This document shows, one piece after another, positions 52,684-57,175 of a stretch of 64,000 nucleotides of DNA. Position 1 is the first letter of the stretch. Each line of letters opens with the position of its first letter. The stretch covers positions 2,108,001-2,172,000 of the forward strand of contig CM065881.1 of the NCBI GenBank assembly GCA_033439255.1, in the 5' to 3' direction. The DNA comes from Hericium rajendrae. Lineage: Eukaryota > Basidiomycota > Agaricomycetes > Russulales > Hericiaceae. Position numbers and translations under genes: made by a program. The notes under the pieces are model-generated. The model made no database searches. It was not told the origin of the DNA and worked only from the letters and a program-made list of their open reading frames with translations.

Positions 52684-53224
52684 CTTTGACTCTAGAGGGT
52701 GGGAGGAATGGACGGTATACGGCGGGTGTCGCGGGGAAGCGAGCATGCTTGGGTCCGAGGAAGAGAGCGAGAATGGACTGCGACAGTCCGGGCAGTCTCG
52801 CTTGTACGGCTTCCCTGAGGATGCTGCTGGCAAGACTCTGCGATCGCGACGGGGCGACATGCGCGGCCTCGAATGACGAGTGGTGAATTGAGTCGCGCAC
52901 TTACCAAAGAAGAGCTGTCGGTCTTCAGCCGAAGAATGGTGAGCTGTAGGGTGGTGGTGAGAACCTGTGGCCGGCTCGGACGACGCTGCTTGAAACGTTA
53001 GCATTCAATTCCATGGTCTCCTTGCCGGGGCAGATTGCATGCATGGGAGATTCCCAGACACGTCAGTCATCCTGCCGGCAAAATAATGGTGAGCGGGAAT
53101 GACAATGCTAAGGCCGTGGTCAAAGAGATATCATGATGTATTGAAGCAATAGGCTCGGATCCACAGATTGGTACAAACGACATTTTGCGGAGGAGGAAGA
53201 TGAAGTTCAAGTTAGCGTTTCTTT
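52684..53224. other. Intergenic
   Basis: Upstream region of the O-methyltransferase gene up to the inverted repeat; nothing else recognised. Confidence 0.4.
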
Positions 53225-53697
53225 ATTGCGAGCGAAGCGAGCATATCTCGCCTAAGGACTGAAGCTCCCAAACAAACAAGGCCAAATTCTGCGCTGCAGT
53301 GGCGCTGGGCAAAATTGAGCTCAAGTCGTGTTCGTCGCGCTAAATGCACGTCAATTTCAGCAGATCTCAGCATGAAACTTCGCAAAGATGAAGCCGTATA
53401 TCCTCGGATCTACTGGTTCAAATTTCGGGTAGGGTTTATTACGAGAAGTGCAAGATTTGATGCAGGTAAACTCAAATTCTCCCCCTTGCGCGCGTATGCC
53501 ACCGCCTGTCACGAGGCCGCCACAAGCTATTGTTATTCAAGTTGTCAATGTCTTTGTCAAACCGCATCGCTGCATGCAATCCATTTGCTTACTGCACATC
53601 TTGGTGTCTCGCACTCTCATGTAGACAAAATTTCCAGACCTGTGGATACTGGCTCGACGTGCGTAGCGAGCATCCATCGCGACTGCGAATCCATATT
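53225..53697 (+). repeat. Left copy of a 473-bp inverted repeat
   Basis: Reads ATTGCGAGCGAAGCGAGCAT at its left end and GCGACTGCGAATCCATATT at its right end. By eye it matches the reverse complement of 55928-56400 base for base. The frame running through it on this strand is the same as the minus-strand frame of the other copy, so it is not evidence of a gene. Confidence 0.9.
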
Positions 53698-54340
53698 TTA
53701 AGCGCCCGTAATCGGTCACCATATTGAGATCGACCGCGCGTGTCGTCTGGTCAGCGTCTGGTCTCTCGAGTCTCTCGAACTGAAGGTCTTCTTGAAGACT
53801 CTCGTTCAATTTGTGCGCTAACAAATTTTCTTGAGCTGGGAACCGGTCTATCTGCGCGCAGGAGACTGTCACCTCTGCAGACATATGCGCCCATTTTACG
53901 ATGTGTATGGGCCGTCCATGCATTGTGGATATCACTCGCTATCCAGGGTGCTGCTGAAATAGGAGACTAACTCTCATGTCTGTAGTATTAGACGCCGTAT
54001 GGAAGACGTCGTGGCAAACATGATGGGCTGGTACCTTCAACTGCACCATACCAGGTCCTTGGTTGTCTGCCTCTTCCGCGACTAGTCCTTGTCGTCCACA
54101 ACCCACAAGTTCCGAGTCTTGTTTCTTTACAGCTGTGCACCACTCAGTAGCGCAACCGTTCTTGCGATCAAACGAAGGTGCGTCTTTCGTAATAACAACC
54201 AAACGACATGTCCTGACGGTTTTGCCCCATAGATCGCCCGATCATCCGGGATCCTGCCATCGTCTCTCAAAAGTGTGCGCTGCACTGCGTGCTAAGGTAC
54301 ATCTGCATTGTCCCGAACGTTCGATTTGAGAAGATCAAGC
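53698..54340. other. Intergenic between the repeat copy and the F-box gene
   Basis: 643 bp of F-box gene upstream DNA; no gene recognised. The codons before ATG 54341 (LRRSS) resemble those before the other F-box starts and may be leader-exon sequence. Confidence 0.4.
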
Positions 54341-56008
54341 ATGCAGAGTCATTCGACCCCGAGGTTTGTGCCTCTGCTCATCGCTGCTACGTATAGTCTT
54401 GACGTCTCTACGTACAGCCCACAGGAGTTTTGGTTAGGATGTATGCAGCCTAGAATCACCCGCATTCAGAATATGCGCTCCCTCGACAAATCCGGTGGTG
54501 TCGCGCGCGCTCATCGAATGATAGACGACGAATTCGCGGCCGTCCATGTGGCCATGCGCGCACTGCACACCGAACGCAATGCTTTGACCCCAGTCTGTCG
54601 CCTGCCCTCCGAAACCCTTGCCCGCATTTTCCTGTCTTGTGCCCAGATGTATGACTGGCAGCCGGAAATGGACCCTGACAATTGGCATTATCCGTCGCTC
54701 GGTTGGCTAAAGGTGACTCATGTATGCAAATATTGGCGCGAAACAGCCCTGCACTATCCTCAGCTGTGGACAGACATCCAGGGAAGCATCAGTACACGTT
54801 GGTTGGAGGTGATGCTTGCACGAGGGAAATCGGCCCCCCTCTCAATCGTTGCATACGAGGCTTCAGCCATGGCCGCCCTCCGCGATCAACATACCATCTC
54901 CCGCCTCCGCGACGTTCATATCCATACAAACGATCGTACCAGCTTAATGCCTACCTTGAAGTCAATGACGGCATCTCCTGCCAATATCCTGCAATCTCTT
55001 CATCTGACTCTAGACGACCATGACGGCTGCGATATCCGGTTTTCTGAACGCATATTCCGGGGCCACGCACCTATGCTTTGCTCCCTCGAATTGCGCAATA
55101 TATATATTCCCTGGTCGGCTCCGATTTTCTGCAAGTTAAAACATCTCAGCGCCACCGTCACATATGTTGCTGTATCTGTTGCAGTTGACCCGAGCAATAG
55201 TGAATCTTCTATGTCGTACGACTGCTTGCTGGATGCACTACGTGGAATGCCTGCCCTTGAGACATTATACCTCGTTAATCGTCTACCTTCCAAAGGCGGC
55301 GATGGCATTGTGGAATTACCACATCTGAAATCCTTATACTTGAAGGACAGAACAAACCGATGCTCCTACGTGGTCAAACACCTCGTAATTCCTTCCTCCT
55401 GCGAGTTAACCCTGTTTTGCACGGAAGATATTGAGGCGCAGTTCATCACCGAGGTCGCCTCTTTTTTCCATGCACATGTGAACAGAGAGCAGACCCCCCT
55501 GCAAGTGCTGGGGCTGAGCGTCAATGACGACCACTCGTGGTTCCGGTTCGCTTATACCACAAGCACTGACGTGGGAGACCAGTATACCCTTGTCCTCCCT
55601 CATCTGGACTGGGACGGAAACACATCAAGACCATGGGATACCATGGCCACCCTCTGTTACAGATTCCCTATGGGGAATATCCGCCATCTCAATATTATGA
55701 TGTCAACGGGATATGCATTTGATCAGGCAGAAAGTCTTGCTATGCAGTCACACGATGAGTTGCTGGGGATGCTTCGTAGAATGCCTGCCCTCGAGAGGCT
55801 AGAGATCATGGACTCAGCCTGTTGTCCGCCTTACAGACCCAGAAACTCCGTTGACAAGAGCATCGTAGATTTACCACGTCTCAAGTTTTTACTCGTAAAG
55901 GCCACGACAACCCGATGCCTCAATCTTAATATGGATTCGCAGTCGCGATGGATGCTCGCTACGCACGTCGAGCCAGTATCCACAGGTCTGGAAATTTTGT
56001 CTACATGA
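54341..56008 (+). CDS. Chimeric F-box protein gene
   Basis: The start MQSHSTPRFVPLLIAATYSL parallels the other two F-box genes. The F-box-like domain reads LPSETLARIFLSCAQMYDW and then WLKVTHVCKYWRETALHYPQ. The Leu-rich region includes MPALETLYLVNRLPS, RCSYVVKHLVIPSSCELTLF and FFHAHVNREQTPLQVLGLSV. Near 55740 the order breaks: after GNIRHLNIMMSTGYAF the protein jumps back to middle-region sequence (ELLGMLRRMPALERLEIMDS, SIVDLPRLKFLLVKATTTRC), duplicating the part already present upstream. This is what an unequal crossover between tandem paralogs would leave. At 55928 the frame enters the right copy of the 473-bp repeat and ends at TGA 56006-56008. If translated the product has about 555 residues with an intact F-box, but its C-terminal third is replaced. 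Function as an SCF adaptor is possible but uncertain. Confidence 0.75.
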   Translation: MQSHSTPRFVPLLIAATYSLDVSTYSPQEFWLGCMQPRITRIQNMRSLDKSGGVARAHRMIDDEFAAVHVAMRALHTERNALTPVCRLPSETLARIFLSCAQMYDWQPEMDPDNWHYPSLGWLKVTHVCKYWRETALHYPQLWTDIQGSISTRWLEVMLARGKSAPLSIVAYEASAMAALRDQHTISRLRDVHIHTNDRTSLMPTLKSMTASPANILQSLHLTLDDHDGCDIRFSERIFRGHAPMLCSLELRNIYIPWSAPIFCKLKHLSATVTYVAVSVAVDPSNSESSMSYDCLLDALRGMPALETLYLVNRLPSKGGDGIVELPHLKSLYLKDRTNRCSYVVKHLVIPSSCELTLFCTEDIEAQFITEVASFFHAHVNREQTPLQVLGLSVNDDHSWFRFAYTTSTDVGDQYTLVLPHLDWDGNTSRPWDTMATLCYRFPMGNIRHLNIMMSTGYAFDQAESLAMQSHDELLGMLRRMPALERLEIMDSACCPPYRPRNSVDKSIVDLPRLKFLLVKATTTRCLNLNMDSQSRWMLATHVEPVSTGLEILST

Positions 56009-56400
56009 GAGTGCGAGACACCAAGATGTGCAGTAAGCAAATGGATTGCATGCAGCGATGCGGTTTGACAAAGACATTGACAACTTGAATAACAATAGCT
56101 TGTGGCGGCCTCGTGACAGGCGGTGGCATACGCGCGCAAGGGGGAGAATTTGAGTTTACCTGCATCAAATCTTGCACTTCTCGTAATAAACCCTACCCGA
56201 AATTTGAACCAGTAGATCCGAGGATATACGGCTTCATCTTTGCGAAGTTTCATGCTGAGATCTGCTGAAATTGACGTGCATTTAGCGCGACGAACACGAC
56301 TTGAGCTCAATTTTGCCCAGCGCCACTGCAGCGCAGAATTTGGCCTTGTTTGTTTGGGAGCTTCAGTCCTTAGGCGAGATATGCTCGCTTCGCTCGCAAT
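55928..56400 (-). mobile_element. Right copy of the 473-bp repeat, inserted in an F-box gene
   Basis: Inverted relative to 53225-53697. It splits F-box coding sequence exactly between codons for RCLNL and IKCLRIPSSS, as alignment to paralogs (RCSYVVKHLVIPSS) shows with no lost residue. Flanks are CTT before and ATCAAG after. No clear target duplication or terminal inverted repeat is visible, so the class is unknown. Confidence 0.75.
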
Positions 56401-57175
56401 CAAGTGCCTCAGAATCCCTTCCTCCAGTGATATAAAATTACTTTGCTCCGAAGACGCAGAAGCACAGTCTAAGATCCCCGAAGTCATGTTCCTATTCCAC
56501 GCGCATGTGAATAGAGAGTGGCAGGCTCCCCTGAAATCACTGGTGCTGACAGTCGACCATTCAGACCTTGGCATACGCACTTGGCGAACAAGAGATGACG
56601 GCGAGACTAGAATTTTGTACCATCTTCAGCTTCCTCAAATAGAGACGGATCGGACCAGTACTACGCCCGATCTTCAAGTCCACCGGTTCAAGTATCCACA
56701 GCCATCACGAGACAATGTTGCCGCATTATGTCATGGGCTGCCGTTGGACGGGATACGCAATCTCAAACTCAAACTGTTCAATTTTGATCTCAGAAACTGG
56801 ACACCACAAGAATGGCTCGGTATCCTGGGACGGTACGGGGCAGTTGAGGACGTTCAGTTTGACGGGGACCTGTTAGTGGCACCAATATTCTGTAGGGCAT
56901 TAGCCATGCACATCGATAAGGAGGGCAACCTGTTTCTTCAGAACCTATGCCATCTCACCCTGAACCTCGATATCAACAGAGGAGACCCTGGTCAATCTTA
57001 TCAGGCAATCGTGAACCGGCTGGATGCACGCCAGAAGATAAAGAGGATTCAGACAATCAGCATCGTTGACAATTCAAACTTTCCGGAAAGGTTTATTACA
57101 GACTTAAAAGAAATTGGGCCAGAGGTTCAAGAGGTTGGGTGGCAGGACTGGCACCCGGAGTCGGAGTCGGACTAA
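56401..57175 (+). pseudogene. C-terminal remnant of an F-box gene
   Basis: It continues the F-box gene after the inserted repeat: CLRIPSSSDIKLLCSEDAEA, MFLFHAHVNREWQAPLKSLV, WTPQEWLGILGRYGAVEDVQ, LAMHIDKEGNLFLQNLCHLT and a natural end EVQEVGWQDWHPESESD with TAA 57173-57175. The reading frame is open into the repeat, starting near 56240, but no F-box lies in it. The codons are undamaged, so the break is recent or the part is still used. A GT-AG intron inside the repeat (for example GTATCC near 55975 to GCCCAG near 56314) would join both sides in frame, which is speculative. Confidence 0.75.

Follow-up and report, generated by a model that had tools for sequence, protein, structure and literature searches.

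A putative short non-autonomous DNA transposon in an F-box gene of Hericium rajendrae, perhaps a passenger of Helitron-like proteins

Why does a stretch of 473 bp occur twice, in opposite orientations and 2.2 kb apart, within a few kilobases of the Hericium rajendrae genome, with one of the two copies lying inside an F-box gene? The preliminary description of the 64,000-nt window examined here (C4:2108001-2172000) had suggested a new kind of short mobile or gene-conversion unit, or a silencing trigger. An inverted-repeat comparison within the window bears out its starting point: 53225-53697 and 55928-56400 are reverse-complementary at 473 of 473 bases, which places their divergence below about 0.6% (rule of three). 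The inverted arms as detected span 53221-53697 and 55928-56404 with a spacing of 2230 nt, and their outer four bases (CTTT vs CTTG) contain one mismatch, so that the identity ends where the unit ends.

A DNA search of the whole 46.8-Mb genome (19 contigs) with the unit gave eight matches, corresponding to six full-length copies, one of them in two pieces, and one relic. The full-length copies are spread over contigs C4, C6, C10 and C13, and a duplication confined to a single locus, which had been a concern at the outset, is ruled out by this dispersal. The left copy in the window, c1 (53227-53697, plus strand, 471 bp, TGCGAGCGAAGC...CCATATT), lies 0.78 kb upstream of the F-box ATG, and the right copy, c2 (55928-56398, minus strand), is identical to c1 and lies within the F-box coding sequence. 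The others were located at C4:205693 (c3), C13:700726 (c4), C6:676687 (c5) and C10:350853-351781 (c6, the copy in two pieces), and the relic, which is 68% alike over part of the right half, at C1:1703742. In c6, the two pieces are separated by a nested element of 435 bp, whose terminal 15 bp form perfect inverted repeats (AGGACCCATGAATAT) and which is flanked by a duplicated target of 8 bp (AGTGGCGC); we take this insert to be hAT-like. The copies c3 and c5, on two contigs, are identical at 99.6% of 479 positions apart from a 5-nt indel, and the remaining pairs (neither c1/c2 nor c3/c5) show 89.0-92.6% identity over the unit. The 1.5-kb flanks of different copies have nothing in common (blastn, E<=1e-3) except for the stretch between c1 and c2, which belongs to the flanks of both loci by position. 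Six copies that share both ends amid unrelated flanks point to a mobile element of about 471 bp, in keeping with the mobile unit first proposed. It carries no gene, as had also been noted, judging from the stops in the frames of the insert. A known structured RNA is ruled out by Rfam, which gave no match at E<=1 in 53100-56600. On its sequence, the unit is a short (about 471-bp), gene-less DNA transposon of the non-autonomous type, of which the window holds two copies and the rest of the genome four more at full length. The family has moved at several times, latest for the pairs c1/c2 and c3/c5; since this second pair is 99.6% identical on two contigs, movement is likely to be recent. The inverted pair would then be a by-product of one or two insertions, and the copies seem to represent a small, new family within a type of element that is broadly known, not a genetic unit of a new kind.

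The F-box gene defines how the element was inserted. The F-box/LRR gene extends over 54473-57175 on the plus strand from a putative start codon, which corresponds by arithmetic to about 743 codons when the 471-bp insert is subtracted. The reading frame is open on both sides of c2, and it is the same frame. The part upstream of c2 matches PF12937 (F-box-like; E 7.9e-5, 22.8 bits, slightly below the cut-off of 24.3), and the part downstream has no match in Pfam. In the F-box frame, codon 27 of the insert is a stop, and c2 has broken the gene. At the junction, RCLNL|IKCLRIPSS retains eight residues between RC and IPSS only with a net gain of 471 bp, and this RC-x8-IPSS spacing is present in the first repeat unit of the gene itself and in two paralogs in the window. 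The frame and these three comparators set the net gain at 471 bp and leave room for no more than 1 bp of duplication; interruption without loss of codons, as previously described, thus holds for 471 bp and not for 473 bp. The gene also contains an internal repeat (55213-55262 and 55747-55796, 534 bp apart, 72% over 50 nt). Since the F-box frame is otherwise undamaged, the insertion of c2 is probably young.

The letters left for the target are AT (Ile, where the comparators have V, I and T) or, less likely, AA. Two boundaries fit an AT target, namely TNAT^A (element TGCGAG...CCATATT) and A^T (element TTGCGAG...CCATAT); the two bases before c1 (AT) were assigned to the target from the F-box frame and from the variable first base in c6. 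Among the six sites, T at -4, A at -2 and A after the 3' end each occur in five, and each of these biases has a P of about 0.003 from the window composition. TNAT is present at four of the six sites and TNAT^A at three, a motif that was not chosen blind, A^T having been tried first and TNAT^A adopted from PMC5148889. A is found on the 5' side in five sites and T on the 3' side in all six, and the two boundaries fit the same letters, the T adjoining the element being indistinguishable from the element's own letter. Words of 2-5 nt are shared around the six sites at differing offsets, which argues against a consistent target duplication; with the A^T boundary, c1 is the only copy flanked on both sides by TTTA. 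The similar flanks (CTTA before, AAG after) in the preliminary description are found at the two window sites and missing at the other four, and hence are not a feature of the family.

The ends of the element are far more constant than its body. The 5' end is at 53227-53252 (plus strand) in c1 and at 56373-56398 in c2, where the element is on the minus strand; the 3' end is at 53661-53697 (plus strand, GCGTAGCGAGCATCCATCGCGACTGCGAATCCATATT) in c1 and at 55928-55964 (minus strand) in c2. The 26-nt 5' end of c1, which holds GCGAAGCGAGCAT, is the same in the other copies, c5 alone having five extra nucleotides after the first 17. An 18-nt 5' end is exact in all six copies, and the 34-nt 3' end is free of mismatches in five, with a single one in the sixth, so that (A/T)TTGCGAG...CCATATT is common to all. 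The motif GCGTAGCGAGCAT starts 37 nt before the 3' end, and the first 13 nt of this 3' region repeat the 5' motif directly at 12 of 13 positions. In the two copies tested, this direct repeat is matched by 0 of 400 (c1) and 3 of 400 (c4) shuffles. On the other hand, the best inverted 13-nt match, 8 of 13, is equalled by 392 of 400 and 391 of 400 shuffles, respectively, and is thus at the level of chance. The relic retains GTGCGTAGCGAGCATCAATCG while its aligned part is just 65-68% alike, which suggests that the end motif matters. Hairpins can be drawn at the 5' end (GCGAG-CATAT-CTCGC) and at the 3' end (TCGC-GACT-GCGA), which are no more stable than shuffles (z-scores of -0.93 to 0.41 in four folded strands). 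Neither terminal inverted repeats between the element ends nor a poly-A, A-rich or repeat tail was found, so the comparison of ends and sites supports what had been noted from the window, namely the absence of both and of a consistent target duplication. The literature searched contained no mention of the 15-mer GCGAGCGAAGCGAGC, a result that concerns that literature and not print as a whole.

Several classes of element are incompatible with these properties. A MITE or other DDE transposon is rejected for lack of both terminal inverted repeats and a consistent target duplication. A SINE is rejected in view of the missing tail, the missing duplication and a copy set in which six members are full-length, next to a single partial relic and a lone 5' end. 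A solo LTR is rejected by ends other than TG...CA and, again, by the missing duplication. The absence of target duplication is evidence against DDE transposons, LTR elements and SINEs in general, and therefore rolling-circle elements or site-specific recombinases remain. The rolling-circle reading is favoured by the frame evidence (a gain of 471, not 470 bp) together with the target motif.

The element may accordingly be a passenger moved in trans by a Helitron-like rolling-circle protein, a reading to which we give a probability of roughly one half. One of the genome's many Helitrons would provide, in trans, a Helitron-type Rep/helicase that recognises both end motifs of the element; one strand would be copied by rolling circle and integrated, with no duplication of the target, at a site centred on AT (TNAT^A, or A^T). 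One such event would have placed a copy in the F-box gene and broken it, the source of c2 probably being one arm that gave rise to a copy at a site 2.2 kb off in the opposite orientation. Candidate sources of the protein are abundant in the genome, where 67 match pieces of Helitron_like_N were found, 66 of them above the cut-off; open frames about 1,000-2,300 aa long contain many of these. The 20 Rep loci that were read show two types of HUH motif: four have RGLPHxH and 16 have RG(T/M/S)LHxH, with T in 14, M in one and S in one. RGLPHxH is the Helitron form and S a mark of Helentrons in the available part of PMC4067079; with S in only one of the 16, they give no indication of a Helentron as the partner. 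The odd inverted pair thus has a simple account, and it shows how a short element of recent activity, in a genome rich in Helitrons, breaks a gene without target duplication.

The traits of the element fit known elements that insert without duplication, Helitron-like ones best, and so do not call for the new kind initially proposed. One close likeness is to FoHeli1 and FoHeli2 of Fusarium oxysporum, which are of the Helitron2 type and whose site is TNAT^A in the text of PMC5148889, its Fig. 2 legend placing it between TNAT and T. As far as the available part of that source goes, they share with the element this site, a 3' end rich in A and T (ATATTTT in FoHeli1/2, CCATATT here), a 5'-terminal motif that includes the triplet GAA, a repetition of that motif before the 3' end (at 38-51 bp in FoHeli1/2, starting at 37 nt here) and the occurrence of identical copies (PMC5148889). 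However, the repeat of FoHeli1/2 is inverted and lies in a hairpin, whereas that of the element is direct and its hairpin is not above chance; FoHeli1/2 end in ...TTTT unlike the element (PMC5148889), for which no Rep partner was found. HINE/DINE-1 elements, which are moved by Helentrons, are likewise short and gene-less with defined ends, leave the target unchanged, have repeats close to the 5' end and again a few tens of bp before the 3' end, and insert at T-rich or AT-rich sites, in some cases with microsatellites; in contrast to the element, they have inverted subterminal repeats and known partners (available part of PMC4067079). HELPO1/2 of Pleurotus ostreatus are canonical Helitrons that resemble the element in having neither terminal inverted repeats nor a target duplication, and their A^T insertion would be possible for the element as well. 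Their T(C/G) start and CTRR or CTTG end are missing from the element, in which no above-chance hairpin is found (PMC4289320, in the part available). The TC...CTRR ends of canonical Helitrons are absent in either orientation from all six copies. The asymmetric subterminal inverted repeats of Helitron2 and HINE were not found in c1 and c4, although insertion without target duplication, another trait of these groups, agrees with the F-box frame and the three comparators, which allow at most 1 bp. The element is not assigned to Helitron, Helitron2 or HINE, since the end letters or inverted repeats that mark them were looked for and are not there.

An autonomous element that encodes a Rep and has the ends of this element was searched for and not found in this assembly. 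The end patterns were 27, 34 and 21 nt long with up to three mismatches, and 18 nt long with up to two. Beyond the copies, they gave one exact 18-nt hit (C4:3349053), three hits with two mismatches, from a search whose reversed-pattern control gave eight, and one 21-nt hit with three mismatches. Judged by coordinates, these hits and all copies are more than 80 kb away from each of the 67 Rep match pieces, which holds for ends of this similarity, as more diverged ends would escape. At C4:3349051 (L039, 1496-1516) there is an isolated exact 21-nt 5' end with a TGAT flank and a different sequence behind it, and the 3' end was not found beside it; the 5' end of the element may thus exist on another element. 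Further on there is a putative thiolase fragment, which recurs in L081. A loose end pattern gave 33 hits (13 in the reversed-pattern control), of which 11 are copy ends and one is the relic; those in L042-L044 and in L032, L045 and L048 belong to other repeated sequences. At C5:2608808 there is an exact match to 15 nt of the 3' end, which may be due to chance. The exact end patterns had no hit in viral contigs, nor the exact 5' end pattern in prokaryote genomes. Around the Rep matches, ten downstream stretches (placed by guess, some of them past the element), three upstream and two more downstream were read, and none of these resembles the ends of the element. In L076 (position 978, reversed strand) there is a canonical-looking Helitron 3' end, a hairpin followed by CTAGT, and L078 and L079 are a near-identical pair ending in a long inverted repeat. 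A Rep pair on C10 and C9 has an upstream block in common, CCTGTACCCGT.AGGG..ACAGG, with similarity lost at the frame end. Hairpins with a GAA loop number zero in 30 Helitron loci, against a shuffle mean of 3.35. A partner, once found, would add a new type of rolling-circle end or indicate another recombinase.

The lack of a partner is also what would be seen if the element were a non-autonomous DNA element of an undescribed class, or one derived from a known class whose diagnostic ends it has lost, an explanation that we consider possible but doubtful. Decay of a known class is argued against by near-invariant ends in copies that differ by 8-11% overall. As for a new class, insertion without target duplication does not demand one, since Cryptons also insert in this way. 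The same is already known for Helitrons (available part of PMC4289320), although the ends of the element do match none of the types described in the available parts of that source, PMC5148889 and PMC4067079.

The element could instead be a non-autonomous Crypton-like one, which a tyrosine recombinase would cut out as a circle and integrate at a short shared core, either ATT or TT. Like Cryptons, it has no terminal inverted repeats and no long target duplication; ATT is at both ends in five of six copies, the subterminal repeats are direct, and recombinase-type domains exist in the genome, where NDC10_II, which we take as a mark of Crypton-type recombinases, has 14 match pieces, 10 of them above the cut-off. 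On the other hand, the shared core of at least 2 bp conflicts with the F-box frame: a core of ATT or TT needs a gain of 470 bp, which would leave the gene out of frame, while both sides are otherwise open and three comparators hold the spacing. Copy c6, moreover, has TTT and not ATT on the 5' side. This explanation is therefore unlikely.

The copies are often found near F-box genes. Five of the seven copies (four of the six loci) are within, or at most about 1 kb from, F-box/LRR genes: c2 is inside and c1 upstream of one and the same gene, and tblastn and open frames place F-box-like proteins about 0.4, 0.5 and 0.8 kb from c4, c6 and the relic, respectively. No F-box-like match (E<=0.01) was found within 1.5 kb of c3 or c5. 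Candidate F-box-like matches number 441 in the genome (150 of them scored), and even 441 genes with 5 kb around each would cover only about 5% of the genome, so that an excess by chance is unlikely, the association having been noticed afterwards. It may reflect only relaxed selection in such clusters. The nearness offers a testable link between small transposons and the turnover of an expanded gene family. The family might even be an undescribed kind of eukaryotic mobile element, small and recently active, with neither inverted ends nor target duplication, with paired direct end motifs (GCGWAGCGAGCAT) and with a preference for sites within or next to F-box genes. Such an element, which we regard as quite improbable, would help to inactivate and diversify the expanded F-box family.

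The identity of the arms might have arisen otherwise, through gene conversion between older insertions or through an assembly duplication, and complete identity at such a short distance is what either would give. Both are very improbable: the identity does not reach beyond the element, an assembly fault would hardly coincide with boundaries common to four other copies, the undamaged F-box frame speaks for a young c2, and a near-identical pair on different contigs (c3/c5) makes the gene-conversion unit of the preliminary description unnecessary. That the pair serves as a silencing locus, giving double-stranded RNA against the F-box gene whose upstream region and first part the arms flank, is hardly credible, because the four other full-length copies have no second copy nearby in the genome search, pairing thus being no habit of the family, and because 2.2 kb separates the arms and the left one would be missing from a transcript that began downstream of it and before the F-box ATG.

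One further observation concerns the Helitron matches themselves. Two copies of an end motif, GGGCCGATGCTNTGCATGGCAA, in opposite orientations (C4:1806940, plus strand; C4:1821600, minus strand) flank a Rep match at C4:1811953, and a Helitron-like protein within a large element with terminal inverted repeats, as the region C4:1806890-1821621 together with L078 and L079 might be read, would be odd. The motif occurs 289 times with up to three mismatches (once in the control) and is clustered on several contigs, where the clusters perhaps correspond to centromere regions.
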